Shown one piece after another: positions 4,726 to 31,513 of a stretch of 64,000 bases of DNA. The stretch is from Pseudomonadota bacterium (GTDB lineage: Bacteria > Desulfobacterota > Binatia > Binatales > Binataceae), in contig JAJPKA010000018.1 in assembly GCA_021323945.1 (NCBI GenBank), forward strand, positions 288,853-352,852, read 5' to 3'. A model generated the notes under the pieces. The model was not told the origin of the DNA and did no database searches. It saw only the letters and a program-made list of their open reading frames with translations. Position 1 is the first letter of the stretch. Each line of letters begins with the position of its first letter. Made by a program: the position numbers and the translations under genes.

Positions 4726-5322
4726 GTGAAACTCGGACTGAGCATAAGAAAACGCTTAATGCTGTTGGTCGGACTTATGATTTCGGCCTGCAGCCAGCAG
4801 GCCGTTACGAGCACAACTTCGGTTCATCCACCGCTCGACCCGGCGCCTTACATCATCGGAGTCAACGACGTTTTGGAAGTAGTCGTTTGGAGGCAGCCGC
4901 AATTAAGTGGAAAGATTACAGTCGAAGAAGATGGCAGCATTGCGGTCCCGCTCGCCGGGCGTGTACCGGCAGCAGGAGTTAGTTGTCAAACCCTCGAGAA
5001 GACCCTGTATGCCAAGCTGGTGCCTTTTATCCATGATCCGCGCGTGACTGTCAGAGTGTCCGATCCTCGCAGCAAAGTCTTCTATGTAATTGGCGAAGTC
5101 AAGAAGCCCGGCGTCATGCGGCTGGTATCCGGTGAAGTGTTGTCGCAGGGGCTGGCGGAGGCCGGAGGCTTTACTGATTTCGCCAACCGGCGGGCGATTA
5201 AAATCGTCAGGCGCGGGCCCACGGAAGATGTAAAGATAACGATCAACTACGACAGGATCGAAAAAGGTGACCTGGCTGCCGACATTCCGTTGCAGCCCGG
5301 CGATACGATTACGGTACCCTGA
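4726..5322 (+). CDS. Polysaccharide export lipoprotein, Wza/outer-membrane auxiliary family
   Basis: The 198-residue product starts with a lipoprotein signal: basic n-region, a hydrophobic stretch, then a lipobox ending MISAC with the modified Cys at residue 22. The Poly_export domain follows (about 45-120, YIIGVNDVLEVVVWRQPQL and DGSIAVPLAGRV). An SLBB-type domain comes next (about 125-190, VIGEVKKPGVMRL and LAEAGGFTDFA). Such proteins form the periplasmic/outer-membrane channel for capsule or EPS export. It is short compared with E. coli Wza, as is usual in exosortase-associated EPS loci. The start is GTG with a weak ribosome binding site. Its stop overlaps the next ATG by one base (TGATG), so the genes are translationally coupled. 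Confidence 0.9.
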   Translation: MKLGLSIRKRLMLLVGLMISACSQQAVTSTTSVHPPLDPAPYIIGVNDVLEVVVWRQPQLSGKITVEEDGSIAVPLAGRVPAAGVSCQTLEKTLYAKLVPFIHDPRVTVRVSDPRSKVFYVIGEVKKPGVMRLVSGEVLSQGLAEAGGFTDFANRRAIKIVRRGPTEDVKITINYDRIEKGDLAADIPLQPGDTITVP

Positions 5323-6926
5323 TGGATCAGACTGACTCGACCAACCTGGCGCCTTATGTCGATATTATCTATCGCTATCGAGCGGATCAAAGCCGGCATT
5401 TCTCCCTCGCTCCATATATCGACATCGCTTATCGCCACCGGCTAAGCTCGGTGTGCGTTTTGGCGGTTGGCACTGCACTCACCTTGGCCACTGTCTTGTT
5501 ACTTCCCAGCGTCTTTCGATCGTCTACGCTCGTAATGATTCAGCCCCAGGAGGTTCCCTCGGTCTACGTATCAGCGCCGGTCACCGGCCACATCCGCGAT
5601 CGGTTGAAAGCACTGAGCGAAATCGTCCTGAGCCGCACACGCCTTGAGCAAATAATCGGGCAGTTTGGACTGTACAAGACGCGTCGCAGCCGAGGAGCTT
5701 CGATTGAAGAGATTGTGGAATACATGCGGCGGCATATCCATATCGACGTTACGGAAGATCCCAACAACACCCCCGAGAAACGCACGCCTTCGTTCACTCT
5801 TTCCTTCGAATACTACGATCCGGTTACCGCGCAACGAGTGACGCAGGAGTTGGCCAACCTGTTCATCGACGAGGATCTGAGGCAGCGGGGGCGACAGGCT
5901 GCAGCGACCACCGCGTTCCTCAACGAGCAGCTCGCCAAAGCGAGCGCCGCCCTGGAACAAAAAGGGCGCGAGATCAAACTCTTTAAGGACCGCTATCAGG
6001 GCAGTCTGCCGCAGGATCTAGAAATCAACCTGAAGATGCTCGGCGACCTTCAAATTCAGTATCAAAAGGACAACGAGGCCTTGGTCGCATTGCAGCAACG
6101 CCACGCACTACTGCAGCGAGATCTCGCCCGCGCGCAGGAGGACCAACTAGCGGTTATTTCGGCCAGCGGACAGCGAAGCTCCGCCTCCCCGGAGGCGGCT
6201 CTGATTTTGAAGGAAACCGAACTGGCCGAGCTCCAGGCCCGCGACACAGAGGCACATCCGGACGTGCTCCGACTAAAAGCGGAGATCGCCAGACTCGAAT
6301 CGCTGATCAAAAGCCGCGCCACCGGGGAAAAAGTTGCGAGCCGCTCACCAATGGAAGAGGAGTTAAGCAAGGAAATCGACAGCACCGAGGTCGATGAGCG
6401 GCGCCTGGAGACCGAGCTGCCAGGTCTCAAACAAAAAATCGATGACTACCAGCGCAGGATCACCCAGACGCCAGCTCACGAACAGCAATTCGCTGCTTTG
6501 ACCCGCGACTATAACGGACTTGACGCTGATTACCATAAACTGCTCGACAAGAAGCTGGAGGCGCAAATTTCACAAAATCTCGAGCAGCACGAGGAAGGCG
6601 AGCGTTTTCAAGTGCTCGATCCCGCCAATCTGCCACTCGAGCCCGAGGCACCCGATCGTGAGGCATTAGCGATCGGGGGATTGCTGTTGACATTGGGATT
6701 TGCTGTCGGTTTGCCCTTTGCTCTGTACTTCACTGATAGCTCATATAAAGATCCCGACGAGCTGAGGCGAGAGTTGGCCGTCGCCGCAGTTACCGCAGTT
6801 CCGGACTTGCCGGAACTAGAGCCAGGCAGTTCTCGTCGCTATCCGCTTTATCGCTCGCTAGCGATCTCCTGTGCGACTTTCCTGCTGGGGGCCGGAGCTC
6901 TGTGGATTTACGCCGGGTCGTTGTAG
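5322..6926 (+). CDS. Wzz/GumC-type polysaccharide chain-length determinant
   Basis: The 534-residue inner-membrane protein has a transmembrane segment near residues 43-62 and a long periplasmic coiled-coil region (about 170-420). A second membrane segment lies near 447-467, after the proline-rich stretch LDPANLPLEPEAPDRE. A third hydrophobic segment ends the protein (about 512-531). This is the polysaccharide co-polymerase layout that sets EPS chain length with a BY-kinase. It has no fused kinase domain; the kinase is encoded separately at 8125. The N-terminus carries two near-identical 12-residue blocks (residues 9-20 and 29-40), described separately. It overlaps the export gene by one base. 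Confidence 0.9.
   Translation: MDQTDSTNLAPYVDIIYRYRADQSRHFSLAPYIDIAYRHRLSSVCVLAVGTALTLATVLLLPSVFRSSTLVMIQPQEVPSVYVSAPVTGHIRDRLKALSEIVLSRTRLEQIIGQFGLYKTRRSRGASIEEIVEYMRRHIHIDVTEDPNNTPEKRTPSFTLSFEYYDPVTAQRVTQELANLFIDEDLRQRGRQAAATTAFLNEQLAKASAALEQKGREIKLFKDRYQGSLPQDLEINLKMLGDLQIQYQKDNEALVALQQRHALLQRDLARAQEDQLAVISASGQRSSASPEAALILKETELAELQARDTEAHPDVLRLKAEIARLESLIKSRATGEKVASRSPMEEELSKEIDSTEVDERRLETELPGLKQKIDDYQRRITQTPAHEQQFAALTRDYNGLDADYHKLLDKKLEAQISQNLEQHEEGERFQVLDPANLPLEPEAPDREALAIGGLLLTLGFAVGLPFALYFTDSSYKDPDELRRELAVAAVTAVPDLPELEPGSSRRYPLYRSLAISCATFLLGAGALWIYAGSL
5346..5441 (+). repeat. Internal duplication in the Wzz-like N-terminus
   Basis: Residues 9-20 (LAPYVDIIYRYR) and 29-40 (LAPYIDIAYRHR) are near copies with a period of exactly 20 codons. 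The DNA copies are at 5346-5381 and 5406-5441. The codons differ between copies at many third positions, so the duplication is old and appears kept at the protein level. It precedes the first membrane segment on the cytoplasmic side. Confidence 0.8.
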
Positions 6927-7019
6927 ATAGAGGCAGGCCAGCCTGACCGCTCTACTGGCGAAAAGCACAACCACGCGTCGGGCAACGCCGAAATTAACTA
7001 CGAAAAAGAGTCAACTGCG

Positions 7020-8108
7020 GTGGGGATATACGAAGCCTACTACGACTGTCGCTCGGAGCCTTTTAGTTTAAGTCCCGACCCTCGGTTCCTTTACCTGTCT
7101 CCAACTCATCGCGAAGCTTTGGCGCAGTTACGCTATGTAGTCGAAATGCGGAAAGGGTTCGCGGTGCTTACGGGAGAGGTCGGCCTGGGTAAGACCATTT
7201 TGCTCCGCACCTTGCTGCAGCAAGTGCGCGCCCAGGTACGGACGGCTTACATGTCGAAGCCGCCGCGATCGGTATCCGAGCTGTACGCGGCAATCGGGCA
7301 GGATTGGGGATTGAGCCTGGACAGCGGCGAGAGCCCCATTTTCCGACTCAATGTCGCTTTGCTAGAGACTTACCGCGCTGGAGGCACCTTCGTTTTGGTA
7401 TTTGATGAGGCCCAGCAGTTACCTATCGAAGTCCTCGAGGAGATCCGTCTGATATCTAATCTCGAAGCGCCCGATGCCAAGTTGGTTCAGGTGATTCTGG
7501 CGGGACAGCCGGAATTGGAGACGTTGCTTGAGAAGCCAGAGCTACGAGCCCTGCGCCAACGGGTGGTAATGTGGCACACTCTGACCGCGCTCAGTCTAGA
7601 GGATACGGTGCAGTACATTTCCAGTCGGGTTAGGATTGCAGGCGCCCGACGGTCGCCTTTTACGCTCGAAGCTTGCCGCGCGGTCCATCGACTATCGCGT
7701 GGGGTGCCGCGTCTTATAAATCTGATATGCGACAAGGCGATGTTATTGAGTTATGCTTCCGACAGTCCGCGTGTGGATCGGCGGTGCGTGGAGTCCATCG
7801 CCGAGGAACTGCGCCTTACGGCGCCACCTTCCGCCAGGTTTTTCCGCAAAACCAAGCTGAGCACCACGCGGTGGGGAATCGTATCGCGCGGTGAGGCTTT
7901 GAAAAAAAAATTAGCGGTTGCTTGCATAACTCTCTTCCTGGTATTGCTTACCGCCGCCTGTCTCGTCGCCTCACGTCATTATTTCACGAACAGAAAAAGT
8001 CACCGGTTGTTTTCTCCGGACGCAGATACGAGGGCTCACGATTTAACGTTTTCCCCGGTAAAAAGATGGGCTCTTGTACCTAATCGAGTGGAAACTTATC
8101 AGGCATAG
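7020..8108 (+). CDS. GspA/ExeA-like AAA ATPase of the exosortase-associated EPS locus
   Basis: The 362-residue product begins YEAYYDCRSEPFSLSPDPRFLYLS, the conserved opening of the ExeA-like ATPases found in PEP-CTERM/XrtA EPS loci (TIGR03015 type). It has Walker A GEVGLGKT (about 52-59), Walker B FVLVFDEAQQ (about 122-131), and a sensor region ending in RGVPRLINLICDKAML. A single membrane segment lies near residues 299-318, followed by a short periplasmic tail. It probably energises or senses assembly of the export machine; the mechanism is not established for this subfamily. The start is GTG, 93 bases after the Wzz-like gene. Confidence 0.87.
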   Translation: MGIYEAYYDCRSEPFSLSPDPRFLYLSPTHREALAQLRYVVEMRKGFAVLTGEVGLGKTILLRTLLQQVRAQVRTAYMSKPPRSVSELYAAIGQDWGLSLDSGESPIFRLNVALLETYRAGGTFVLVFDEAQQLPIEVLEEIRLISNLEAPDAKLVQVILAGQPELETLLEKPELRALRQRVVMWHTLTALSLEDTVQYISSRVRIAGARRSPFTLEACRAVHRLSRGVPRLINLICDKAMLLSYASDSPRVDRRCVESIAEELRLTAPPSARFFRKTKLSTTRWGIVSRGEALKKKLAVACITLFLVLLTAACLVASRHYFTNRKSHRLFSPDADTRAHDLTFSPVKRWALVPNRVETYQA

Positions 8109-8124
8109 GACTTGGTGCCGGGTC

Positions 8125-9183
8125 ATGAGCAGAGTCTACGAAGCTCTAAAAAAAGCCCAGCGAGAGGGGCTGTGGTTCAACGACACCAGTCAAACCCATG
8201 GCGACGCTGATACTCTGGAGATTCCCTCACTCGATCGGGACTGTGCGGTAGCCTGTGAGCAAGCCACGCTACACTCATCGGGCACGTCAACGAAGGGCGC
8301 TGAACAGTCTAACCAACCTCCCGGCGTGGTGGGCGTGCAGGATTCAACGAGACGCGATGGCCGAGATTTCACAATTGAGACAGAACTGCCAGAGGAGGCA
8401 GTCCCGTATCCGAGTGTGCTCTCGTTTGGGACGAAATTTCTCAGCCGCATAAACGACTGGTGGCGACTCTGGCTAAGCGACGCCAGCACTGCCACCGGTC
8501 CTCGCCTGATCATCCATCAAGAGTTGCTTGCTCGGGCGGCAGAGCAGTTTCAGGTGCTGCGCGCGAACGTCGAAAGCTGGGTGCTTGAACACAATCAGCA
8601 TCTCCTTCTGGTGACCAGCGCTTTACCTGGCGAGGGCAAAAGCTTTGTCGCCCTCAACCTGGCGGTTGCTCTGTCGCACGCTGGCTGGAACGTGTTGTTG
8701 GTGGATGCTGACTTGCGTGCCCCCTCTCTACACATACCTTTCAATCTCGTCCCCTTGGGAGGTTTGCTGCCGTACTTGGAGGGTCGACAGGAATTTTCCG
8801 AAAGCATCACCCTGACACCCCAGCCTGGCCTTAAGCTGATGGCGGCCGCGGGCGTGACTTCATTGGGTTCAGAACTTTTGGGCGGTCCGCGAATGCGAGC
8901 CTTAATAGAGCAGATACGCGGTCTCGAACCAGTGCCGATTGTTTTGTTTGACTCCCCGGCAACGGCAGTTGGTACCGAGGTTCAATTGCTCAGCAGGCTG
9001 GTAGATGGAGCGCTGCTTGTGGTTTCCGCAAATGCGACTCCGCGCGCAGCGGTGACCAAGGCTCTGGAGTTTATTAAAGGCGTACCAATGGTAACCGCGG
9101 TCTTGAATCGATTTGAGACCTCGTACTCAACCTTGCGACATCAGCGCCATTACGCGAAACGCAATGTAGACGAGCAAGCATGA
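8125..9183 (+). CDS. BY-kinase-type (CpsD/Wzc C-terminal) tyrosine autokinase
   Basis: I chose the ATG giving MSRVYEALKKAQREG, the characteristic start of exosortase-associated tyrosine autokinases, over an upstream frame that overlaps the ATPase. The 352-residue protein has an acidic linker, then the P-loop PGEGKS (about 168-173). Walker A' follows (LLVDADLRAPS) and then a Walker B-like strand (PIVLFDSPAT). The C-terminus carries a loose tyrosine cluster (TSYSTLRHQRHYAK), possible autophosphorylation sites. It would work with the Wzz-like protein at 5322 to cycle EPS polymerisation. It starts 16 bases after the ATPase gene, in the same operon. Confidence 0.87.
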   Translation: MSRVYEALKKAQREGLWFNDTSQTHGDADTLEIPSLDRDCAVACEQATLHSSGTSTKGAEQSNQPPGVVGVQDSTRRDGRDFTIETELPEEAVPYPSVLSFGTKFLSRINDWWRLWLSDASTATGPRLIIHQELLARAAEQFQVLRANVESWVLEHNQHLLLVTSALPGEGKSFVALNLAVALSHAGWNVLLVDADLRAPSLHIPFNLVPLGGLLPYLEGRQEFSESITLTPQPGLKLMAAAGVTSLGSELLGGPRMRALIEQIRGLEPVPIVLFDSPATAVGTEVQLLSRLVDGALLVVSANATPRAAVTKALEFIKGVPMVTAVLNRFETSYSTLRHQRHYAKRNVDEQA

Positions 9184-9246
9184 GGGGACGAAACAGTTGC
9201 TTGTTCGACTGTGCCTGGAGTCGAAGGAGCCTCGGAAGGCATTTTT

Positions 9247-10422
9247 ATGAATCCCACCACCGGTTCGATGCCTTCGAAACTGATGCTGCTGCCCGCGGTA
9301 GTGGCTTTTACGGTGCTCAGTTCACCGCTGTTTGCCGCTGACAAACTCGAAATCTGGCCTGGCGTAAGCCTGGCAGGCGAGCTTGCCGATAACCTGCAGC
9401 AGACGTCGGCTACTGGCTCCGATGCGATTGGTTTCTTCGGGATTGGCGCCACGGCGATGATGAATGCTCCGGACAGACGATTCAGTCTTGATTACAGCAC
9501 CGATGCCCAGGTCTATGCGCGCAATTCCGGCTTGGATCAGCTGTTCGAGGACCAATATGTCGGAGTTCACGATTATGAGCGACTGAACGCGCTGACAGAG
9601 GTTTCGTTGAATGACACGTTCATAAACGGTCAGTCGACCTTTGGCGAGACGTTGATCGGCAATTCGGCTGCGTCACCACTGCTGAGTCAGGCGTTGCTCC
9701 AGAACAGCTTTCTCACGAACGCGTTCAACCTGGAGATTAGCCACGAATTTGGCGAGCGATTCTTGAGCTCGATAAGTGTACATCAGACCTACTTCTCGAC
9801 CGGCAATGGCCAAACTTCAGAATCTTTTGACCAGGGCGGGAACTTGACACTTTACTACCGTTTATACCCGCGCGTTTTGGTCGGGCCCGAATTTGACCTT
9901 AGCGATTTTCGCTTTTCCAACCAGCCACGCGCCGATTCGATCCAACCATCGCTTCGCGTTAACTTTAACTTGAGTGCAGAGTTAATTGCTTCCGTGCGTG
10001 TCGGACCAATGCTTCTGACATCACCGTCAGGAAGCCTCTTAGAGGTGGGCTACGCGGTAAGCGTCTCTTACCGGTCACCGCGCTGGTTACTTAGTTTGTT
10101 CAGCAGTCGGGCGCCGAGCATCAGCGGCGGGGTTTCAGGCATCGCAATCAGTCAGTATGAGGGGATTTCCGCCCAATATCTGCTAAGCCGCTGGACGAGT
10201 GTCTATGTGAATTCGAGCTTCTATCAGCTCTCGCAAAGCGCGGACAATGGCTACAGCATTGCCTACAGTGCTGGAGTTACTCGGCGATTGACCAGGAGCG
10301 TTTCGATTTTCGGAACTTTTATAAGATTTGAGACGAACTCGCCGGGCTCGTCAAACGCCGTAACGGATATGCTAATGATGGGCATTAAATTCTCTCCTCA
10401 GTGCTGGATCTTGACCTTTTGA
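9247..10422 (+). CDS. Outer-membrane beta-barrel protein of the EPS operon
   Basis: The ATG at 9247 has a good ribosome binding site (GGAAGG, 7-8 bases upstream) and yields a 391-residue protein. A clean signal peptide ends SSPLFAADK near residue 30. The rest alternates polar and hydrophobic residues with many aromatics, for example FSLDYSTDAQVYARN, TLYYRLYPRVLVGPEF and SVSYRSPRWLLSLF. It ends MMGIKFSPQCWILTF, with a terminal aromatic as in barrel proteins. Exosortase-associated EPS loci often carry an uncharacterised barrel at this place (TIGR03016-like). A role in moving or anchoring EPS at the outer membrane is inferred. It is the last gene of the forward operon. Confidence 0.78.
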   Translation: MNPTTGSMPSKLMLLPAVVAFTVLSSPLFAADKLEIWPGVSLAGELADNLQQTSATGSDAIGFFGIGATAMMNAPDRRFSLDYSTDAQVYARNSGLDQLFEDQYVGVHDYERLNALTEVSLNDTFINGQSTFGETLIGNSAASPLLSQALLQNSFLTNAFNLEISHEFGERFLSSISVHQTYFSTGNGQTSESFDQGGNLTLYYRLYPRVLVGPEFDLSDFRFSNQPRADSIQPSLRVNFNLSAELIASVRVGPMLLTSPSGSLLEVGYAVSVSYRSPRWLLSLFSSRAPSISGGVSGIAISQYEGISAQYLLSRWTSVYVNSSFYQLSQSADNGYSIAYSAGVTRRLTRSVSIFGTFIRFETNSPGSSNAVTDMLMMGIKFSPQCWILTF

Positions 10423-10583
10423 GCACAGTGTCCGCCTTGCTCTTCGCTGAGGTCCAGAACCAGAGTTACCGATGCCCGTCAATTGGTGAGCCGGCGAGCG
10501 CCAGTTAAGTGTAGCCTGAGCGGGGTTGGGTCAGTTCCTTAGCCGTTGAGAAACGAGGCTGCAGGATCGGGTAGCCGCTACAC

Positions 10584-11393
10584 TCAAATTGGTAGGCGTA
10601 AGAGTTGTCGAATCGCTCGCACGATCATTAGGTAATCGAGGTCGCCGCGTAGCATACCCTCAAACAGAGGACTGGTTTCCGGTGCGACTCCCATTCGGGG
10701 AATGCGGAAGGGTTTAACGTTATCCGGAACGATGCTATGTCGGACGGTGACGGCAGTCTTGTACCCAGCTTCCCTGACCCAGCGAGCGTTATCGCTGTTA
10801 AAAAACCCGTAAGGATAGGCGAAATGCTCGCATGCTCCACCGATCTTGCGCGATATGATGTCCTTGGACGAGATAAGCTCGTGCATCGCCGCCTCGTAGC
10901 TCAGCTGCCTCATATCAAAGTGATGGCAGAGATGGGAGCCGATAATAACGCCATTTTGGCTCATCTCTACAGTCTGGGACCATGTGAGCGTTGGCTCGTG
11001 CGGAAAGAAACCCTCGATGTGATCCCGCGCGGCATTCCGATCGAGTGCGGCAACAGTCACATAGAGTAAGGCGGGAAAGGAATAGCGGCGAAGAATGGGA
11101 TAGGCGTACTCGTAAACGCCGGCATAGCCGTCATCAAACGTTATGGCACAGGTTAGAGGTGAGGCCGTCTTCGGATAACTCCGGTTTGCAATTTCATCCA
11201 GCGCAACAACCTGGGCGTGAGCCTCGAGATAGGCCATTTGTTGTGCGAATTCTTCGGGCTTTACAGCGTAGGTCGAATGGCCCACGGCGTGGTACATCAG
11301 AACTATTACGCGGCGCTTGCGGCGCCGGGCGGAGAGTCTGCTAACGGCGCGCAACACACTGCGAATTGCGCGTCTTTGGTAAGTGAGGGTCAT
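10584..11393 (-). CDS. Polysaccharide deacetylase family protein (NodB fold)
   Basis: The 269-residue protein has the NodB motifs of carbohydrate esterase family 4. TFDDGY (85-90) holds the metal-binding and catalytic Asp. SHLCHH (153-158) gives the His ligands. FAYPYG (about 191-196) is motif 3. A basic, non-cleaved N-terminus without an obvious signal peptide suggests cytoplasmic or membrane-associated action, although VIVLMYHAVG at 29-38 is the usual first strand. It would remove N-acetyl groups from a glycan or its precursor. It converges with the EPS operon and lies 49 bases after the nucleotidyltransferase-like gene on the same strand. A second, different deacetylase is encoded at 28017. 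Confidence 0.9.
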   Translation of the reverse strand: MTLTYQRRAIRSVLRAVSRLSARRRKRRVIVLMYHAVGHSTYAVKPEEFAQQMAYLEAHAQVVALDEIANRSYPKTASPLTCAITFDDGYAGVYEYAYPILRRYSFPALLYVTVAALDRNAARDHIEGFFPHEPTLTWSQTVEMSQNGVIIGSHLCHHFDMRQLSYEAAMHELISSKDIISRKIGGACEHFAYPYGFFNSDNARWVREAGYKTAVTVRHSIVPDNVKPFRIPRMGVAPETSPLFEGMLRGDLDYLMIVRAIRQLLRLPI

Positions 11394-11442
11394 CGGACAA
11401 AAACTTGTAGTACGGCTCTACGCTGCTCTTATATCGCGAGGT

Positions 11443-12696
11443 TTAAAGTGATGCGAACCGGAGGTGGCGATTCCAGGCCTCTTCGCTGGCACGCGCCAGC
11501 TCCAGGCGTTGCAACTTCTGCGAACTCGCCGCAGTACCGAGGAAATTGCTGACGGTTCGAGTAATTTCCGGACCCGGTGGGCTCTCCAACGATATCTCGT
11601 GCCAGAAGAATTCCAATAGACAGCCACTTGCATAAATCGCGTTAGCTAATGAGCCAGCGCGAAGCGCGGCCTTTAGAAGGGACTTAATCCCCTTGGCCGT
11701 CTCGCCGCGGCGCACTCCGCGCAACATGAGTCTCGTCCAATCCCGCGCCCGTTGACCGAATGTTTCGATGCGGCGCAAGCGCTCGGGCACAAGATGCCAG
11801 TCTGATTGATGCGTTTCGGCACCGAGCATTCGTCCGGTTGCCCAAAACCAGATACGGCAGGCGGCGCGCGCGACTTCGTCGAAGCGTTCGTCAACGCTTT
11901 CTCCTGTTGGCGGAGTCTGTCCGAGCTTGAGGGCCATCGCCTGACGAAGCCGGTCGATTAGCAGTGTCTGGAACGGGCTGTCGAAGAGATGAGGCCGAGA
12001 TCCGAACAGTGACTCAATCTCAGCTTGACGTTCACGATAAGTGCTTCGATAGCAACCCAGGAACACCGAAAGGGAGGTCGCGAGTTCAATCCAGAATTTG
12101 CCAATTGCGTATTCGGCGGCGGTAACCGTCTGATGTGAAATGTCGTGTTTAGCCCGTGCAGTTAGTTGTTCGATGATGCGATTGTTGAGCAGACGTAGTC
12201 CATCCTCTTGCGGAATGTCGCGTTGTCCATTCCTCCACCAGGAGGGGAGCGGAAGGGCTGAGGGTTGACCCCACAAGAGCTTGCCATGCTCCAACAATTC
12301 TCGATTGAAGATCGACGGGCGTAGTCGGCTCAGTTGCTGCGCAGGCATGCAGGTCAAACCAACCTCGAGGCCTCGCCCTTGCTTTCTCAGCTCAAAATTG
12401 AGTGCATTGCGAACGCGGCAAAGCTCACTATCAATTCGCTTGATGGCGGTCTTCCGATCCTGAGTGAGCAACAGGCACTCGATATTGCCCAGCCAGCGAG
12501 TGCCGCCGGCGCTATCGGCTATTAGGGTTCCCTCGCCTCGTGCGACACTCCCCGTCAGGATCATGCCCACCAGCGGAAATTCTTTCATTGCATCGCGAAC
12601 AGAATCGGACACGTATGTCAGGTCACGAGCCGCGTCGGCCTGAAAAGTCGGATCGGCACATAACGGAAAGCAGCCCGGAGGTTGTAGTTGAAACAT
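11443..12696 (-). CDS. Nucleotidyltransferase-fold protein of unknown function in the EPS locus
   Basis: The 417-residue protein has a nucleotidyltransferase-like N-terminus. GMILTGSVARGEGT (about 43-56) contains the G-S helix motif, and NIECLLLT (about 71-78) could supply the acidic strand. The rest is mostly helical with no recognised domain and no signal peptide or clear membrane segment. The pattern resembles minimal or aminoglycoside-type nucleotidyltransferases, yet the second carboxylate is not obvious, so catalysis is unproven. Its location suggests a role in making an activated sugar or tailoring the glycan. The ATG has GGGAGAG about 11 bases upstream. I do not recognise the family precisely. 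Confidence 0.62.
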   Translation of the reverse strand: MFQLQPPGCFPLCADPTFQADAARDLTYVSDSVRDAMKEFPLVGMILTGSVARGEGTLIADSAGGTRWLGNIECLLLTQDRKTAIKRIDSELCRVRNALNFELRKQGRGLEVGLTCMPAQQLSRLRPSIFNRELLEHGKLLWGQPSALPLPSWWRNGQRDIPQEDGLRLLNNRIIEQLTARAKHDISHQTVTAAEYAIGKFWIELATSLSVFLGCYRSTYRERQAEIESLFGSRPHLFDSPFQTLLIDRLRQAMALKLGQTPPTGESVDERFDEVARAACRIWFWATGRMLGAETHQSDWHLVPERLRRIETFGQRARDWTRLMLRGVRRGETAKGIKSLLKAALRAGSLANAIYASGCLLEFFWHEISLESPPGPEITRTVSNFLGTAASSQKLQRLELARASEEAWNRHLRFASL

Positions 12697-19367: not shown

Positions 19368-19439
19368 CTCGCTTCCCTCACAGGACTGAAGGGACATTTT
19401 CACCTTAGCTCCGCAGCGCAGCGAGCAGAGTAGTCACTT

Positions 19440-21020: not shown

Positions 21021-21232
21021 GCAACTCATTCCGTCCTGGTCGATTGGTCTCGGCCACCTTCGCGGCAGGCTCGAGCTCCGCAAACGCCGCTTTCAGGCAC
21101 GCGGAAACGAAGAGTCGCGGCATTCTTCGCGGAAAGTAGACCCGCTACAGGAAAAGCTCAGCCCCATGAGATCAGTCAGCCGACAGGTCTCGAATGGCTC
21201 TTGCTAAGCAAAGCTTGTTGGGATTCACGATC

Positions 21233-22657: not shown

Positions 22658-23917
22658 TTAGATCGCTCGCGCGCTCTCTGGCGCGTTCCCCGTCAGCTTG
22701 ATCCATCTGGTTAAGCGCTCAAGATAAACTTCGACCAGACGCGCCCCAATGCTACTCCAGTCATAGGTTGACTTAACCAGTTCCCGCCCAGCAGTGGAAA
22801 GCTGTTGCCACCACCGAGGATTGCGACGCAAGGCAACCAGCTTCTGAAAAAATTCATCCGGGCCTTCCGCCAGAATCAGATGGATGTCAGGACGTACGCG
22901 TAGGCCCTCAGCCCCGAGTGACGTGGAGATCACTGGTACGCCGGCTGCCATCGCCTCAAGAATCTTAAGCCGGGTGCCGCCACCGACTCGCAACGGGACC
23001 ACCGCCGCGAATGCTTCCTGATAGTAGGGGCGCACGTCATCCACCGTCCCAGTCACGGCAATTCCGGGCCGAAAGGCCAACTCCCGGATGCTGGCGGACG
23101 GGTTTCGACCGACTATGGTAAACACCAACTGGGGAAACGCGGCGTGAATTTTTGGCCAGGTCCCCGTCGCAAACTCATATACGGCGGAGACATTGGCTGA
23201 GTAATCCATCGCACCGACAAAAAGGAGCCGATTGCGTAGCGCTATCGAGTTTATGGCTTGGACACCTGTCCAGTGGTCGAACAAACTTAAGTCAACGCCG
23301 TTTTCCACGACCGCAACGCTCGCCTGCGGCCGTATGCTCAATAGCTGGTCGCTCTCACGTTGGCTGGTAACAATGTGGAAATGACAGCTCTCGAGCATTT
23401 CGGCCTCAATCCGTTTGAGTTGGCTGGCTGCCCGCTGCATATACAATCTGTGCAAAGGAGTTCTGGCGTGCGATGAATGTCTGGTTACCAGCTCGGACTC
23501 TATGTTGTGCCAGTCCAGGGCAACGAATGCACCATGTCCATAAGCCTCGACGATGGGCAAATAGGGCGACATCTCCACTCCCTCTAGTAAGACGGTGTGA
23601 TAGTGAGTCGCCTCGAGTTCCTGCACCAGAGCCGCCGCCAGCTCAAAGGTGAAGTAATTCAGCAAATTGACCGGTGTCTTACCAAGGGCCCCGCGCGCTA
23701 ACTTCCCGATGGTGTACGTTGTAGGTTTGGGAAACAGCTTGAGTTGGATGCCGTCATGCCGAAGGGTGGAAAGTGGTTGGCAGCGGTCGCTCAAACCGAG
23801 ATGAGTTACCGACATTACCTGCGCCAGATGGCGGGCAATGTAGTAATTGCGAATATTCATACCCCCCGAAAGCTGGGCAATATCCGCGGAAGCAACTTGC
23901 AGCAGCTTCAATTCCAC
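22658..23917 (-). CDS. Glycosyltransferase family 4 (GT-B), exosortase-EPS type
   Basis: The N-terminal domain has SADIAQLSGGMNIRNYYIARHLA, the glycine-rich acceptor loop, and ALDWHNIES, a motif of family 4 enzymes in exosortase loci (TIGR03087-like). The C-terminal domain has LLFVGAMDYSANVSAVYEFA and RVGGGTRLKILEAMAAGVPVIST, the E-x7-E region. It ends about 419 residues long using the GTG at 23917, which has AGGAAA six bases upstream; a TTG at 23977 also keeps the frame. Its stop touches the polymerase gene. It adds a sugar to the lipid-linked EPS unit. Confidence 0.87.
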   Translation of the reverse strand: MELKLLQVASADIAQLSGGMNIRNYYIARHLAQVMSVTHLGLSDRCQPLSTLRHDGIQLKLFPKPTTYTIGKLARGALGKTPVNLLNYFTFELAAALVQELEATHYHTVLLEGVEMSPYLPIVEAYGHGAFVALDWHNIESELVTRHSSHARTPLHRLYMQRAASQLKRIEAEMLESCHFHIVTSQRESDQLLSIRPQASVAVVENGVDLSLFDHWTGVQAINSIALRNRLLFVGAMDYSANVSAVYEFATGTWPKIHAAFPQLVFTIVGRNPSASIRELAFRPGIAVTGTVDDVRPYYQEAFAAVVPLRVGGGTRLKILEAMAAGVPVISTSLGAEGLRVRPDIHLILAEGPDEFFQKLVALRRNPRWWQQLSTAGRELVKSTYDWSSIGARLVEVYLERLTRWIKLTGNAPESARAI

Positions 23918-24082
23918 CGAGCGTTTCCTGTTTTGAGACAGCAACGTTGTTGTTTCTGAACTTGGCGACGCTCCCAAAACGCTATCGCCACAACTTCACC
24001 AGAGTCACCCAGCCGCTGGTTTGGCCAGACTCTGGTCCGGTTCTTTTTTGGCTCTGTTCTCCCATCACCGAAGCGAGAACTA

Positions 24083-25336
24083 TTAACTCACGGCCGCCGC
24101 CAGACACGGATAAATGTCGGCTATTGTATTCAGCGGCAGTGGCGGCGTCCGATTGCTCAGAAAAATGGCGTCGGAGTTGGGATCTGACGGGTCATAACCA
24201 TGCATCCCTGCAGGATTCCATCCACCGCCGTTGAAGTCGCTCCGGGTGAAGAGCCACCCTGGATTAAGCAGAAAGACCAGTTCCCCGTACCGGCGGTCCG
24301 GAAACAGTATGCCGAGGCTGTTTAGTTCAGCATCTGTCAATACGCGCCCGCAGGCAGTGGCCTTTAGTTCGGCGATGATCGCAGCGCGAGCAGCCGAGTC
24401 GAAGAACCAGTAACGCGCCATAGTTGAGTCGTAAACGGCGAGATATTGCTGAGGTATTTTGAACCCGAGCCGGGCGATGCGCCCTACCAAGTCATAGCTG
24501 GAATGCACGGGGGCCATGCCATGATCTGAAGCGACCGTCATCGTTGCATTGCGGTCGCGTTTTAAGGCACAAACAAAAATCTCGCGAAGTTCCCGTTCAT
24601 ACCAGGATAGACGCTGGCTAATTAGCGTCTCTTGGGTGCGATTGCGATGTAGGAGGCCGTCCACCTCACATAGATACAGGAAATAGACACTTTCGCGGCC
24701 CGATTGGATGTCGGCACGGGCTTGGCGCAGAATCTCCGCATCGGAGAACTGGTGATAAGTGTAGGACTTATATGGAATTTTGTGGCTTTCGAGCAGGTCG
24801 AAGATCGAGCTTGCGCCGGAAATTCCACCCTTTCGGTAAATGTTGAGCTTCTCAAGATAGTTGAACAGAGGCAGCAGACGCGGACTGACTGAGCATTCGA
24901 ACAGAGGCCCCATTCCAAGCAAGCGCCGACCGAGTTCTTTGATCAGTTTGCGAACGAGCCGGTTATCTAGCGCCCACTCTGGTAAAACGGAAAACCAACG
25001 TAACCATTTGAACGGGGAACCTTGCGGATCATAGTAGAAAAGGTTCCAGTGACCAGTCTCGACCGGCTTACGACCGGTCAAAAGCGTGGGAATCGCTCCC
25101 GAGCTATAGCCTAGGACGGTTTTCAGTGGCATGCGCACCGGAAGTTCGTCGTTCAGGAACGGCCGATCCTTAATGATCTGCCAGCCCAATGCGTCAATCA
25201 GCACGAAGACAAGCAGTTTTCGTTGTGGGATGCCCTCTTGAGGAACACGCAGAGCGCCCGCAGTTTTACCCCGCCGCTCTGCGGCGGGCGCCTGCACAGA
25301 TGTTTCATTCGTCTGAGGCAGCGACAGCAGTCTCAT
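24083..25336 (-). CDS. Alkaline phosphatase superfamily (type I phosphodiesterase-like) protein
   Basis: The protein of about 417 residues has alkaline-phosphatase-superfamily motifs. LLVFVLIDALGW holds the first metal-binding Asp (about D48). GYSSGAIPTLLTG (76-88) is the nucleophile Ser/Thr block. SDHGMAPVHSSYD holds Asp/His metal ligands, and MHGYDPSDP near the C-terminus supplies the last His. No signal peptide is visible, so it seems cytoplasmic. Possible roles are hydrolysis of a phosphodiester or nucleotide sugar, or transfer of a phospho-substituent to the EPS. The ATG at 25336 has GGAG seven bases upstream; a TTG at 25375 is the alternative start. Confidence 0.78.
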   Translation of the reverse strand: MRLLSLPQTNETSVQAPAAERRGKTAGALRVPQEGIPQRKLLVFVLIDALGWQIIKDRPFLNDELPVRMPLKTVLGYSSGAIPTLLTGRKPVETGHWNLFYYDPQGSPFKWLRWFSVLPEWALDNRLVRKLIKELGRRLLGMGPLFECSVSPRLLPLFNYLEKLNIYRKGGISGASSIFDLLESHKIPYKSYTYHQFSDAEILRQARADIQSGRESVYFLYLCEVDGLLHRNRTQETLISQRLSWYERELREIFVCALKRDRNATMTVASDHGMAPVHSSYDLVGRIARLGFKIPQQYLAVYDSTMARYWFFDSAARAAIIAELKATACGRVLTDAELNSLGILFPDRRYGELVFLLNPGWLFTRSDFNGGGWNPAGMHGYDPSDPNSDAIFLSNRTPPLPLNTIADIYPCLAAAVS

Positions 25337-25384
25337 TTTGAGGCTCCGCATCCGTAACCAACCGTAAACAGACAAACAGGGCCA

Positions 25385-26407
25385 TCACGGAATACAGCGC
25401 ACCACTCTGGGTCCCAGGGTATTGGCTACTGCCAGCGGTAGCCGCTTCCAGAGTGCTGTGGCCAGTCTGAACTTCGGATTATCAGCGCCGAAGGTTCTAA
25501 TTGCGGTCCCGGGTGCCAACCAATAGTACCAATTGAGTGGCTTCGCGATCGGTTGCCAATGCTGCTTGAACTGATAGTTGCCGCTACCCGGCACGCAGCG
25601 CCCAAGGTCAAGACGTTTGAATCCCTCTTCAATGGCCTTCTCGATCAAACTCCAGTACAGCAGTGTTGGTGCTTCTTTTCTCCGTGACTCGGGGAGAGAG
25701 GCTGCCCATGGCAATTCGAGTGTCTCTCGATAGGCAGAGACAAGGCCCGCAGCCACCGCCTGGGAGCCGTCTCTTAAGATCAGTATTCGAACCTTATCTG
25801 AGAGGCGGCAAAGCTGTTGCTCGAAAAACTCGCGCGGGTAAACAGGTGTACCCAAGTTGCGCATGTTAACCGCAAAAATGCGGTAGAATTCGGATACTCC
25901 TTCGAGCCCGGTCCATTCCGGGCGCAGCTGATGCTTCAGAAGATATCTGATTCTCTTACGTCGCGCGGAACTCAATCGCCGCAAGTAGTCGTCGATTGTC
26001 GCGGGCAGCTCAATCTCCATCACAACTCTGTGTGAATGCTGGTGCCAGGCAGTCGGGAGAGCCGTTCGTTGGCGGAGCTCAATATGATGCACCCTGAGCT
26101 CGCGCGCGAGTTCCGCTGCCGCCGCCAACAAAGCATCGGCAGCTTCCTGGTTGTCGGCGAGAATGCCACCATGGCTGCAGAAAGGTAGGGAGACCAGGAA
26201 ATCGCCGAAGAGCCGGCTGGATATTCGGACTAACGGTAAAACGCCGCAGATTGTGCCGTCTCGCACAGCCGTCAGATAAAATGCCTGGTGACCGAAACTG
26301 TGCTCGATGACTTCGCGCCATGCCCACGTGTGATACAAAGTGCCGAGTCTCGCCGATTCGACATAGCGATCCCATCGTTCGGGTTGTTTGGCAAATTCGA
26401 TTTCCAT
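25385..26407 (-). CDS. FemAB-like (GNAT fold) protein of the exosortase-EPS type
   Basis: The product opens FAKQPERWDRYVESARLGTLYHTWAWREVIE, the pattern of the FemAB family proteins associated with PEP-CTERM/XrtA loci (TIGR03019). Further support is VLPLVRISSRLFGDFLVSLPF and YWSLIEKAIEEGFKRLDLGRC. FemAB enzymes move aminoacyl groups onto cell-wall precursors; in EPS loci the acyl acceptor is unknown. The start is uncertain: the ATG at 26407 fits family length (340 residues), while a GTG at 26461 would overlap the upstream gene by 10 bases. It lies 48 bases upstream of the phosphatase-superfamily gene, in one operon. Confidence 0.83.
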   Translation of the reverse strand: MEIEFAKQPERWDRYVESARLGTLYHTWAWREVIEHSFGHQAFYLTAVRDGTICGVLPLVRISSRLFGDFLVSLPFCSHGGILADNQEAADALLAAAAELARELRVHHIELRQRTALPTAWHQHSHRVVMEIELPATIDDYLRRLSSARRKRIRYLLKHQLRPEWTGLEGVSEFYRIFAVNMRNLGTPVYPREFFEQQLCRLSDKVRILILRDGSQAVAAGLVSAYRETLELPWAASLPESRRKEAPTLLYWSLIEKAIEEGFKRLDLGRCVPGSGNYQFKQHWQPIAKPLNWYYWLAPGTAIRTFGADNPKFRLATALWKRLPLAVANTLGPRVVRCIP

Positions 26408-26451
26408 TCCGCCGACGGACTGCCCGTTTTTTTGTTCGCGAACGAAGGGAT

Positions 26452-27663
26452 TCAACCCCACTCCCGCTTACAGGATACCGGGGGCGCTGCCGCGCTGGGC
26501 GCAAGAGCTTCGGCATCGCCTCGGGACAACGCCGGTATCTCCCAAATGTCGAACCGCTTCCCGAGCAGCGCCTCCAAGACTCCCCATAGTGCACCTGTCA
26601 CACCAAGCACTACGTAAAACGGTACCGCTGCCCAGTGTTTGACCGGCCGTCCCCCAAGCGCACTAAATAATCCTAAAAGCGCAAGGCCATAAAAGATTGC
26701 TTGCAGAGCGAGCAATCCTGCGAGCCAGACCGAGTCTGCGGCTCCGGCTGCTGAGCCCACAAGCACCATGATCATTGGCACGAGCGAAGTCCAACGCAGG
26801 AATTTATGCGAAATGAATTGCCAGCCGCGAACGCCGCGCAACGTCCCGGGCAATTCAAGCATGGCGGTCATTCCCTGGGCGCACATCCGCCGTCGACGGC
26901 GCAGTTCCTCGAGCGGCGAACTCGTGTCGCGCTCAAACACCAGAGCGTTAGGTTCGCTTATAACCCAATAACCAGCCGCTCCGATCCGCATCGGCAATTC
27001 GAGGTCATTTGCCAGTTCCGGATGTAAGGGCTCGTAAAGTGAAGACCGGGTGCAAAAAATCGCACCGTCGCAGACTAGAACCGAGCCAATCCTGCTCTCG
27101 AGGTGCTTCACAATCGATTCGAAACCCCAGTAGGCCTGTGCTCCCTTGGCGATTGCCGGACTTTGCATTTCGTCGATCGGTCGAGAGTGTCCAGTCACGC
27201 ATCCCACCCGCGAATCGGCAAAGTGTCGCACCATGAGGCGCAAAGCCTGGGAGCTGACGTGCGCATTGGCGTCGGTGAAGAAAAAAATTTCGCCACGTGC
27301 AATTGCGACCAGATGATTGAGAGCCCGTACCTTACCCCCGCGCTGCTCCATCCGAACAAAGACCAGCCGCGGATCTCGAATAGCTCTAATGATTTCATCG
27401 GTTAGGTCATCTGACGCATCAGAGGCGATTAAGAGCTCGAATTTGTCCGGCGGGTAGTCCCAAGCCAGCGTTTCATTAATCTTCCACGCAATATCGCGCT
27501 GTTCGTTGCGCGCAGCGATTAGGACCGATACCGTTGGAAGATAGTTCGGCGCGCTCAGAACGCGAATGGATTTCCGCCAGGTTATAAGTACAAGCAGAAA
27601 AGAAGGATACCCAATATACGTATAAAGTAACCATGCCGCGCCAACGAGCAAAATAATTCTCAT
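26452..27663 (-). CDS. Membrane glycosyltransferase family 2
   Basis: The 403-residue protein starts with a membrane segment (about 1-27). The GT-A domain follows: VSVLIAARNEQRDIAWKI, LLIASDASDDLTDEII, IFFFTDANAHVS with the metal-binding D-A-N, and DLELPMRIGAAGY. RRRRRMCAQG sits where processive synthases have QxxRW; the Trp is absent here, so processivity is doubtful. Three further hydrophobic segments lie near 305-390. It resembles the cellulose-synthase-like enzymes of EPS loci. The next gene in the operon is the FemAB-like one. Confidence 0.86.
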   Translation of the reverse strand: MRIILLVGAAWLLYTYIGYPSFLLVLITWRKSIRVLSAPNYLPTVSVLIAARNEQRDIAWKINETLAWDYPPDKFELLIASDASDDLTDEIIRAIRDPRLVFVRMEQRGGKVRALNHLVAIARGEIFFFTDANAHVSSQALRLMVRHFADSRVGCVTGHSRPIDEMQSPAIAKGAQAYWGFESIVKHLESRIGSVLVCDGAIFCTRSSLYEPLHPELANDLELPMRIGAAGYWVISEPNALVFERDTSSPLEELRRRRRMCAQGMTAMLELPGTLRGVRGWQFISHKFLRWTSLVPMIMVLVGSAAGAADSVWLAGLLALQAIFYGLALLGLFSALGGRPVKHWAAVPFYVVLGVTGALWGVLEALLGKRFDIWEIPALSRGDAEALAPSAAAPPVSCKREWG

Positions 27664-28016: not shown

Positions 28017-28868
28017 TCAGGCGACGTCGACCAACATGCTATTGGAAAGATAGTCTTCGAAGGTCATCATCGGAAATTCATTAAATAGGCGATGGAGTTT
28101 GCTCTCGGTCGTCTTCAGATTGACGTAGGATTTGAAGCTACGAAGCAGCGTCATAGGCATTCGCGGATGATTGGGATCAATCTCGCGGGGATGCACATAG
28201 AAGATCACTGGCCTGCCTTCAGTCATCACCTGGCGGGTCATTCGTCGAATGACCCAATACGGAAAAAGCCGAAAATAGCCACCGCCGAAGAAACACATCG
28301 GACCTCCCCACACCTGGACGACTGAAATCGGAAACTCGACCAGTGTTCCGCAGACGGTTTTGACAACATAGGGTGTGCGGCAAGCGCCCTTGAGTCCACC
28401 ATGGGCACGGCGCATGGGAAACACCGAAGAATCATAGCTAAAGCCCGCCTGAGCGAGCTTTTCGAAAAACCAAGGCGTGGCTTCTGTGACAGAAAAGCCC
28501 GGAGCTCGGTAGCCCCGCACCGGCTTGCCGAGGATGTCTTCGAGAATGCCTTTGGCGTGAGTGACATCCGCCAAAAATTCTGGTGGCGTCAGCTTGTGAC
28601 AAAGTACATGGGCGTAACCATGGCAAGCGATCTCATGACCGCAGCGTGCAGCCTCGCGCACAAGCTCGGGAAACGCTTGCGCCACCCATCCCAAAAAGAA
28701 GCACGTTACCTTGACTTCATACTGACTGAATAGCTCGAGCAATTTGATGAAATTGCGCGTTACATGAGACGGGTACAAATACCAGTCCTGGACGTCCGGC
28801 GTGCGCTCCAACTCCAGTATGTGAAACCAGTCTTCGACATCAACCGAAAATATATTGGCCGGTTCCAT
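28017..28868 (-). CDS. Exosortase-locus polysaccharide deacetylase (NodB fold)
   Basis: The 283-residue protein matches the deacetylase subfamily of PEP-CTERM/XrtA loci (TIGR03006). It opens IFSVDVEDWFH (6-16, catalytic/metal Asp), then has KVTCFFLGWVAQAFPELV. CGHEIACHGYAH supplies the two His ligands, and VRGYRAPGFSVTEATPWF is motif 3. YVHPREIDPNHPRM is the conserved C-terminal His block. It would deacetylate amino-sugar residues of the EPS. The length is typical. It differs from the deacetylase at 10584, which is of the general NodB type. Confidence 0.92.
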   Translation of the reverse strand: MEPANIFSVDVEDWFHILELERTPDVQDWYLYPSHVTRNFIKLLELFSQYEVKVTCFFLGWVAQAFPELVREAARCGHEIACHGYAHVLCHKLTPPEFLADVTHAKGILEDILGKPVRGYRAPGFSVTEATPWFFEKLAQAGFSYDSSVFPMRRAHGGLKGACRTPYVVKTVCGTLVEFPISVVQVWGGPMCFFGGGYFRLFPYWVIRRMTRQVMTEGRPVIFYVHPREIDPNHPRMPMTLLRSFKSYVNLKTTESKLHRLFNEFPMMTFEDYLSNSMLVDVA

Positions 28869-29108
28869 AAGCTACTCGGTGGGAGTGCGCTCCATGAATT
28901 TACACGCATGAAGATCGAAGAAAAGTAAAAGTTGACGCGATTAACTAGGAAGGCGGTGCGAAGTTCTGAGAGCCAAATCCGTCGCTCGGTCAACTATGTC
29001 CGGATCCGCAAAAGACAAACGCGACCCCGAACTTGGGGAAAAACGATCTCGAGAGAGCGACGACGCCGCAGTCTAAGTCAGGTCAATGCTGTTCGTCTTG
29101 GATCGAAT

Positions 29109-30518
29109 TCAGCGGGCCCCCCGGCGCCAAATGCAGGTGCGGAGCGTTTCGGCCATTATCATAAGATCGAAAATCAGACCAGCGTGCTTTACATAGTACA
29201 GATCGCGCGCTAAGACCTCGTCCGCCCTGTTAAGGCTGTCGGAGTAGTCGCATCGCACCTGGGCCCAGCCGGTGATTCCCGGCAGTACCAACAGCCGCAG
29301 GTTGAAACAGGGTATAGTCTCCATCTGTGCACTGTGAAGCGGATGGAACGGCCGGGGGCCGACGAGGCTCATGTCGCCTTTGAGCACGTTTATCAGTTGG
29401 GGCAGCTCATCAAGGTGGAACCCGCGCATTAGAGAACCGATTCGGGTGATTCGCGGGTCACGGCGCAAGGTTGCCCAGGCCAGCTTTTCTCCGGCCGGTG
29501 TAGTCTGGTACATCGAACGAAATTTGATCATTTTAAAGCGGCGGCCGTGCCTGCCGACGCGATCCTGAAAGAACAGCACTGGTCCCGGGGAATCCCACTT
29601 GATGGCTATTGCCAGTAGCAACATCAGCGGGGAGGCGAGAATCAACCCAATACCCGCAATAAGTACATCACGCCCGCGGCGTATCGCCTGGTTTAGCGTT
29701 CGACGTGGTTGGCTGCTGCTCAATCGAAGCTCGTCGAGCAGGTGCGCTCCGGGCTGAACTTTGCCGAACGCGCGTTCGCGAAAAAGGCCGAGCCTTTCCG
29801 TCTTGATTCCGCGCCGCCCGCATTCTTGTAGAAACTCCAATGCACCGGGCTGGTCAAAGCAGGCTTCGTCGACCACGACTCGGTGCAGCTCGGGAGCCCG
29901 TTTCCCAAGCTCTGACGTCGCTGGGGCGGGACCTTCGCCGAGAAAGATGAGCGCAAAGCCGAGCCAGCCCAAAACTTTTTTTTCGGCGTCCAGCTGCGTA
30001 TACGTCGCGCGACGCCCGACGAAACCCAAACGCAAGGACTCCCATCGCTGACGGAGTAAACGACTAATTGTCGCGCGAGACGCGACAATAAAGTTTGCGG
30101 TCAAACCAGCGTGGACAAGCACTAATTTAAGCGGAAGCTGGAATCTGTCGAAACATCGCTCGAACAGAGCGATAATCACGCATACGAGGCCGATTGACTG
30201 CGTTAAGTTTAGTACCAGCTCACGTCGCGTAGCTACCAGATCAAGATCGTACAAATCCATCAGATAAAAGGCGAATGCATATGCAGCCAACACAACGCCA
30301 ATCTCACCTAGTGACCACCACCAGTTGAACCGTTCGTCAGTCAATAGATGGCTTAGTCGGACTAATAGTGCTGCACTCGCTAGCAACCAGATTAACTCGA
30401 GACCCATGATCAAGGCCACGCGCGAGCGCAGAAATCGAATCACGGCTGAGGCGCCGCGGGTGGGCTGATCGAAAACGGCTGAGAATGTTGATAACGAATG
30501 TTCAGGAGCTGCTGACAT
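29109..30518 (-). CDS. Undecaprenyl-phosphate sugar phosphotransferase (initiating EPS glycosyltransferase)
   Basis: The protein of about 469 residues has four or five N-terminal membrane segments and a CoA-binding-like central region. The C-terminal bacterial sugar-transferase domain includes [23 protein letters not shown], then [49 protein letters not shown] is represented as [18 protein letters not shown]. It moves a sugar phosphate from a nucleotide sugar to undecaprenyl phosphate, the first committed step. It resembles the TIGR03013 type found in exosortase loci. The start is uncertain between ATG 30518 and TTG 30581; the former is preferred. Confidence 0.9.
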
Positions 30519-30943
30519 CGGCTCAACGGAAAGTTGGCGACGGAAGCGCGCCGATTTTCGATGATCTTGCCGTAGCGGCAAGCGCTTAGCATCGAAGAGC
30601 TTGTCTGAGTCAGCTTGCTTCCGACTTCCAGCGCCGAGTCAAAATAGCTTGGTCGTCGGCACTTAGCTACTAAGCCGGCTAAGATAGGCGGTAAGATAGT
30701 AAAGTATAAATTAGTTAATTGTGTGAGCCTCTGACTTTTCGTCTCGAACGTATTGTCAAGGCGAACCTCGGGCTTGTCATTGGTTTTTTCGAGTAACGTC
30801 CGTATCCCTAGTTGCTTTAGAATACCCAGCGAAGACCAGTGTGATTCTGGGACTTAGCTGGCGGGAGTCGCAAGACAAGCATCCAGGGGAAAGTGCTTTC
30901 GGAAACGGGCAGGTAGACGGCGTTGAGCGAAAAAGCTTGCGTA
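30519..30943. other. Intergenic region upstream of the sugar transferase
   Basis: About 425 bases. The stretch 30660-30730 is A+T-rich (AAGTATAAATTAGTTAATTG) and is the likely promoter of the reverse-strand sugar transferase. No supported frame was seen. Confidence 0.4.
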
Positions 30944-31513
30944 CTACAAAGATTGAGGTGAGTCGCTCGGAGTGGTGGCAGGATTGGTGAATGATAGCAA
31001 GCGCCGACGTACGAAAGAAGCTGAGAACAGGAGTGTTAACCCGAACAGAAGTAAAAAGCCGGGCCGTGGGTGAGCGGGGCCAGGTTGGGAGGAGAGGAGG
31101 AGTTTATGGTAGTGGCGAGGATCGGAAAGTGCGGGCGCCACAGGTCTGCCGAGAGACGACCGACCGACGATATACGGTTTGGCCAGCCGAATCATGGCAC
31201 CGGTTAGCGAAAAGCACCATGCAGGGTTCCGAGACAAAAAACTCAAACTACAGCTTAGAGACTTTGTCAGACTGTAGACGTTGTTACCGGAGCGTCCGGG
31301 AAGGATGACTGGACACTCCGCGGATAGGGTTGCATGTCTTGGGCTCCGGCTGGTGTTGAGTTTGGCATCAAGTTGGTCACCGTGATTCGCGCAGAGGAAG
31401 GCTTTGGCATTCGCGGCTCGAGGCAAACTGAAGAGACCTGTTAACGCAAGGAGCGGTGCAATGATCCAGGCGACGGTCGTCCTGCGGAATATTGCCTTGA
31501 TCCGAATAGCCAT
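30944..31513 (-). CDS. Small secreted protein with a PEP-CTERM-like C-terminal segment
   Basis: The ATG at 31513 has a good ribosome binding site (AAGGTGG, 5 bases upstream). The 189-residue product has a signal peptide (about 1-37, basic start, hydrophobic core, ending ANAKA). A polar middle part has no recognised domain. Near the C-terminus, P149-R-P151 is followed by GFLLLFGLTLLFSASFV and R169-R-R171. This order (Pro motif, hydrophobic segment, Arg cluster) is that of exosortase sorting signals. Two oddities are noted: Glu of the PEP triplet is Arg, and 18 residues follow the Arg cluster. It is next to an exosortase-type EPS locus, so it may be an exported, sorted protein. A degraded reading frame is the main alternative. 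Confidence 0.5.
   Translation of the reverse strand: MAIRIKAIFRRTTVAWIIAPLLALTGLFSLPRAANAKAFLCANHGDQLDAKLNTSRSPRHATLSAECPVILPGRSGNNVYSLTKSLSCSLSFLSRNPAWCFSLTGAMIRLAKPYIVGRSSLGRPVAPALSDPRHYHKLLLSSQPGPAHPRPGFLLLFGLTLLFSASFVRRRLLSFTNPATTPSDSPQSL

Follow-up and report, generated by a model that had tools for sequence, protein, structure and literature searches.

An EPS locus of Binatales with XrtA-associated genes in a genome without a detected exosortase

The EPS locus described here, found in the window (the whole stretch of 64,000 nucleotides that was analyzed), is probably a Wzx/Wzy-dependent Binatales locus that would work without exosortase/PEP-CTERM sorting. Sequence comparisons suggest that it received an XrtA-associated block without the corresponding sorting system. 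The window comes from a soil bacterium and belongs to contig C22 of a draft assembly of 3.74 Mb in 22 contigs, with an estimated completeness of 95.5%. The open reading frame (ORF) list and the NCBIfam and Pfam scans confirmed the gene set and coordinates of the original prediction, whose EPS genes span 4726-31549, and a Crp-type regulator at 32020-32808 was counted into the locus too. A tRNA-Arg lies to the left of these genes. The features are the following:

4726-5322, plus strand, OPX-type polysaccharide export lipoprotein (TIGR03027 117.9 bits, cut-off 180; 47-50% identity to Binatus homologues)
5322-6926, plus strand, Wzz-type chain-length protein (TIGR03007 209.3 bits, cut-off 278.85)
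7020-8108, plus strand, ExeA-like ATPase (TIGR03015 225.6 bits, cut-off 324.5)
8074-9183, plus strand, BY-type tyrosine autokinase (TIGR03018 125.3 bits, cut-off 230.65; Walker A motif in the translation)
9211-10422, plus strand, outer-membrane barrel-like protein (TIGR03016 27.6 bits, weak, cut-off 91)
10584-11393, minus strand, polysaccharide deacetylase A, PgaB-like (PF01522 75.7 bits)
11443-12696, minus strand, nucleotidyltransferase-fold protein (NTase) with a helical C-terminal domain, by predicted structure (40-42% to Binatus)
12937-14259, minus strand, GT4 glycosyltransferase, stp2-like (TIGR03088 198 bits, cut-off 409; 47-48% to Binatus)
15402-16475, plus strand, Pro/Thr-rich secreted protein with a probable GH12-like domain (39% to L162:17386-18360)
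16846-17913, plus strand, GT4 glycosyltransferase (PF00534 52.1 bits)
18393-19403, minus strand, GT2 glycosyltransferase (GT2a), Acidobacteriota-like (PF00535; 44-47% to L153, L156 and L164)
19440-21083, minus strand, candidate Wzx-type flippase, Acidobacteriota-like (39-43% to L153 and L156)
21233-22657, minus strand, Wzy-type polymerase/O-antigen-ligase-like protein (PF04932 84.6 bits; 37-38% to Binatus versus at most 28% elsewhere)
22658-23977, minus strand, GT4 glycosyltransferase, stp1-like (TIGR03087 217.4 bits, cut-off 316.65)
24083-25375, minus strand, type I phosphodiesterase-family enzyme (PDE; PF01663 41.5 bits)
25385-26461, minus strand, FemAB-type aminoacyltransferase, XrtA-associated (TIGR03019 338.8 bits, above the cut-off of 260.35)
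26452-27663, minus strand, GT2 glycosyltransferase (GT2b), Acidobacteriota-like (51-57% to L150, L153, L156, L178 and L182)
28017-28868, minus strand, polysaccharide deacetylase B, XrtA-associated (TIGR03006 288.5 bits, above the cut-off of 276.2)
29109-30581, minus strand, polyprenyl glycosylphosphotransferase, the initiating enzyme (TIGR03025 299.8 bits, above the cut-off of 295.55)
32020-32808, minus strand, Crp/Fnr-type regulator (PF00027 and PF13545; 44-47% to Binatus, where it adjoins the export gene)
33646-34914, plus strand, PAS protein, the nearest sensor-like gene (no PrsK match)

The BY-kinase frame likely starts at an internal MSRVYEALKKAQREG. The barrel-like protein has full-length homologues (24-27%) only in the Binatus loci among the related loci compared, and the L162 homologue of the 15402-16475 protein matches PF01670 (GH12). 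The Wzx candidate matched no family model in NCBIfam or Pfam; its homologues in Acidobacteriota loci are multi-membrane proteins that occupy the corresponding place. The initiating glycosylphosphotransferase, above the TIGR03025 cut-off, and the PF04932 match of the polymerase fit a locus of the Wzx/Wzy type.

The label of PEP-CTERM/XrtA EPS locus, proposed originally, holds only in part. Among about a dozen XrtA-associated genes, just the TIGR03019 FemAB and the TIGR03006 deacetylase pass their own NCBIfam cut-offs. The other family models stay below theirs (bits/cut-off: TIGR03027 118/180, TIGR03007 209/279, TIGR03015 226/324, TIGR03018 125/231, TIGR03016 28/91, TIGR03087 217/317, TIGR03088 198/409 and TIGR03097 62/188). 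The sugar transferase had been called TIGR03013-like; it reaches only 226/393 with that model and is therefore better named after TIGR03025.

In agreement with the original prediction, profile scans of the 27 kb found no exosortase, PrsK or PrsR. There is no exosortase gene inside the 4726-31549 interval, and no PrsK/PrsR match among the locus genes, the Crp-type regulator or the PAS gene at 33646-34914. Across the whole assembly, both exosortase models gave zero matches (TIGR02602, and PF09721 at E<=1), and no PEP-CTERM tails were found genome-wide with either PF07589 (E<=10) or TIGR02595 (E<=1). With the same searches, an exosortase was detected in 144 members of the 395-genome phylum sample and in 36 of the 45 genomes that carry PDE-bearing, for the most part related, loci, and PF09721 scored the divergent XrtJ of genome G003 higher than TIGR02602 did. 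The suggestion that the sorting enzyme lies elsewhere is thus refuted for this assembly, and the missing tails argue against a gap. The alternative offered with it, that the locus lost or never had the enzyme, is favored by the joint absence of enzyme and tails. A very divergent sorting enzyme, beyond the reach of TIGR02602 and PF09721, is possible.

FemAB without a detected exosortase is not unique to this genome. In the phylum sample (395 genomes), FemAB exceeded its cut-off in 42; an exosortase match was present in 37 of these and in 107 of the 353 others (Fisher p ~3e-13). The remaining five were the window's genome (G000), G123, G358, G375 and G397. TIGR02595 found 23 tails in G375, 7 in G123, none in G358 and 2 weak ones in G397. 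Because of its 23 tails, G375 was dropped as a second clean case, as was G123; judging by these tails, the exosortase is probably missing from both through an assembly gap. G358 and G397 resemble the window's genome, so that about three of the five survive the tail control. A scan of the genome collection with a single-sequence FemAB query gave no matches.

The closest matches of the individual genes point to two sources. For PDE, FemAB, deacetylase B, GT2a, GT2b and Wzx they lie in Acidobacteriota or Rokubacteria, and for Crp, OPX, barrel, NTase and Wzy in Binatus. The best match of stp2 is the delta-proteobacterial MAG L205 (49%), followed by Binatus (47-48%). The ancestry of FemAB, PDE, deacetylase and NTase was taken from trees, and that of the remaining genes from these matches. 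FemAB is nested in an Acidobacteriota clade (support 97/91 and 99/96, bootstrap 97-99), and a clade uniting it with the Binatus FemAB is rejected (p-AU 3.8e-5). The equivalent clade for PDE is rejected as well (p-AU 2.6e-12), PDE having 53-59% identity to Acidobacteriota/Rokubacteria and 39-40% to Binatus. For deacetylase B, the tree gives a clade of 15 rows (support 100) that come almost entirely from Acidobacteriota, and the NTase groups with Binatus (SH-aLRT 99). The trees have no outgroup, and the donor direction is one that we infer. The exosortase status of the tree genomes comes from draft MAGs; losses were therefore not counted from it. The exosortase-type label is also only half right on ancestry, since the two passing markers sit in the Acidobacteriota-like block and a large part of the other genes look like those of the Binatus locus, which has no exosortase.

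Both GC and GC3 are uniform along the locus. The recent insertion of an island is therefore unsupported, and any transfer would be old. In the same-genus genome G035, der and a methyltransferase neighbor are followed by an asparaginase-like gene and nuo genes (names read from the translations); the different genes after der indicate that this neighborhood is variable.

The order was sampled as one family (41 genomes), and a related EPS locus with no exosortase inside was found in G001, G002, G004 and G006 (Candidatus Binatus), in G004 only partially. Its order is stp2-GT2-FemAB-PDE-Crp-OPX-barrel-Wzz/BY-kinase fusion-NTase-GT-Wzy. Three of these genomes (G001, G002 and G006) are 96-98% complete and contain the related locus with Crp, PDE, NTase and FemAB; genome-wide, they showed no exosortase and no convincing PEP-CTERM tails, so the comparison with related genomes proposed originally extends the absence to them. 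G004 has a divergent exosortase match on a contig other than that of its EPS locus. Furthermore, a PDE query against named genomes yielded 80 loci, for which gene maps were drawn. These maps show a GT2-deacetylase-FemAB-PDE-stp2-NTase block in Acidobacteriota, with variants in Rokubacteria, Omnitrophota and others, and an exosortase is a strong match on the locus stretch in 14 of the 80.

One rival is a complete XrtA/PEP-CTERM system, with exosortase and tails both located in the ~5% of sequence that the assembly lacks. It would fit a 95.5% complete draft of 22 contigs, and similar gaps seem to be present elsewhere, as in G375 and G123, with 23 and 7 tails and no exosortase found. This explanation is nevertheless very unlikely. 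PEP-CTERM genes are scattered, with 9-15 TIGR02595 tails in each of the Acidobacteriota genomes that have an exosortase and the most similar loci (G431, G434, G436, G437, G439 and G440), and all of them would have to vanish together with the enzyme; moreover, the same absence recurs in three good Binatus genomes. Somewhat less improbable, but still unlikely, is that ancestral Binatales had the full XrtA system and later lost exosortase and substrates while keeping the EPS locus, without any import of a block. Exosortase-family proteins do occur sporadically in the order, above the PF09721 cut-off in 9 of 41 genomes, including G035, and as XrtJ in G003. However, the only match that we characterized is this XrtJ (264 bits to TIGR04199) rather than an XrtA, and EPS genes are absent from its surroundings; the FemAB and PDE of the window are not sisters of the Binatus copies.

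It is extremely unlikely that another, unrecognized enzyme sorts a different C-terminal tail, for example that of the ORF at 30944-31549. This frame begins much like a signal peptide and carries a PRPG-hydrophobic-RRRL stretch at its C-terminus, but it matches no NCBIfam or Pfam model, PEP-CTERM models included, lacks homologues among the related loci used for comparison and gives a weak coding signal. A replacement of the exosortase by NTase or PDE was also ruled out. The NTase, mostly together with PDE, is present in exosortase-containing loci (G186, G412, L171-L173, L181, L184-L187, L193, L198, L199 and L212) and hence is no substitute.

Under the preferred reading of a Wzx/Wzy-dependent locus with an imported block, the lineage's own exosortase-less EPS locus, common to Candidatus Binatus, would have acquired a block of Acidobacteriota-like genes (GT2, Wzx, PDE, FemAB, GT2 and deacetylase). 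This block would have brought the two strongest XrtA-associated markers, and the sorting enzyme and its substrates either never came along or were not kept. Judging by the protein families, the sugar transferase would load the first sugar onto undecaprenyl phosphate and the GT2/GT4 enzymes would assemble the repeat unit. Deacetylases, FemAB, PDE and the NTase may modify the polysaccharide. Wzx would flip the repeat unit and Wzy polymerize it, with chain length presumably set by Wzz and the BY kinase, export through the OPX lipoprotein and the barrel, and regulation by Crp. In Methylobacillus 12S, methanolan production is reported to have been unaffected when EpsH was disrupted (PMC1569441), and EPS synthesis independent of an exosortase, as proposed here, would fit this already documented result. 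In Aquincola, a PEP-CTERM protein moves the polymer from the soluble to the bound fraction (PMC9850573); by extension, and speculatively, a locus without sorting may release its polymer or anchor it by other means.

The 417-aa NTase (11443-12696) matched no Pfam or NCBIfam model. Its AlphaFold2 model, of high confidence (pLDDT 91), has a nucleotidyltransferase fold across part of its length, and Foldseek retrieved HalB (E 2.4e-4) and ANT(4') (E ~3e-3). The family has a conserved GSxxRxE motif and a near-invariant Asp71, which is Asn in the window copy. It occurs together with PDE and a GT4 gene in 39 of the 80 PDE loci, several of the other loci being short contigs. Pfam has no model for this conserved family, which could be tested biochemically. 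Whether Binatales hold a dedicated exosortase-independent EPS branch, in which FemAB, deacetylase, PDE and this new family act on polysaccharide and not on protein sorting, is a tentative idea that we regard as rather doubtful.

It is important to consider that the TIGR03019 FemAB and the TIGR03006 deacetylase were named as XrtA/PEP-CTERM parts through co-occurrence. Here both exceed their cut-offs while enzyme and substrates are absent, which suggests that their function does not have to lie in sorting. Caution is warranted, as an XrtA/PEP-CTERM system should not be called from these markers alone. The window's genome provides a naturally occurring case in which to study the effect of each of them on the polysaccharide.

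Compared with the XrtA/PEP-CTERM (EpsH) loci of Proteobacteria and others (Haft 2006, PMC1569441), the locus shares the OPX, Wzz, ExeA-like ATPase, BY-kinase and barrel families, the TIGR03006 deacetylase, the TIGR03019 FemAB, the stp1/stp2 glycosyltransferases and the Wzy-like ligase. It differs in the genome-wide absence of exosortase and PEP-CTERM substrates, the absence of PrsK/PrsR from the locus, the Crp alongside and the scores of most proteins, which lie below the XrtA equivalog cut-offs. The Acidobacteriota loci L150, L153 and L156 (Terriglobia/Bryobacterales MAGs) share the block GT2b-deacetylase-FemAB-PDE-stp2-NTase, and L153 and L156 also carry Wzx and GT2a. Their PDE, FemAB, deacetylase and GT2b are mostly 50-60% identical to those of the window (the L150 FemAB only 30%); unlike the window's genome, theirs have 2-3 exosortase matches and 11-15 PEP-CTERM tails each. 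The Candidatus Binatus locus (G001, DLMJ01000018.1 of Candidatus Binatus soli; G002, G004 and G006) is alike in order and family, with Crp, OPX, barrel, NTase, Wzy, stp2, FemAB and PDE in common and no linked exosortase. There, however, Wzz and the BY kinase are fused, FemAB, PDE and GT2 are just 31-40% identical to the window's copies, and the TIGR03006-type deacetylase of G001 lies on a separate contig. The locus is of a known kind, in a variant form and with an understandable origin.

The exopolysaccharide (EPS) locus and its flanks include the following features.

3676-4398: tRNA-Arg(TCG), then a small HTH_17 gene, at the left edge
11443-12696, minus strand: nucleotidyltransferase-fold protein
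15402-16475, plus strand: secreted protein, Pro/Thr-rich
30944-31549, minus strand: candidate ORF, signal-peptide-like N-terminus, PEP-CTERM-like C-terminus
36030-37625, minus strand: to the right of the locus, protein that carries a RoxA-like cytochrome c segment (PF21419)

For the nucleotidyltransferase-fold family, neither Pfam nor NCBIfam has a model. In Acidobacteriota, Rokubacteria, Omnitrophota, and further groups, it is conserved within EPS loci, close to a PF01663 phosphodiesterase-family gene and a GT4 glycosyltransferase gene. Its nearly invariant Asp71 is Asn in the window copy. The secreted protein, whose homologue in one compared locus (L162) matches glycosyl hydrolase family 12, is possibly an EPS-cutting enzyme. 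The candidate ORF ends in PRPG-hydrophobic-RRRL; its coding signal is weak, and it had no NCBIfam or Pfam match and no homologue among the related loci compared. At the left edge, the HTH_17 gene is excisionase-like.

Two further observations come from other genomes.

L133:10937-11968, minus strand: XrtJ exosortase of a Binatus-genus genome (TIGR04199, 264 bits)

No EPS genes adjoin this exosortase, and a PEP-CTERM search of its genome gave no matches. G375, from the phylum sample (locus L131), carries 23 PEP-CTERM tails yet no exosortase match, probably through an assembly gap; otherwise, it would be an odd case.
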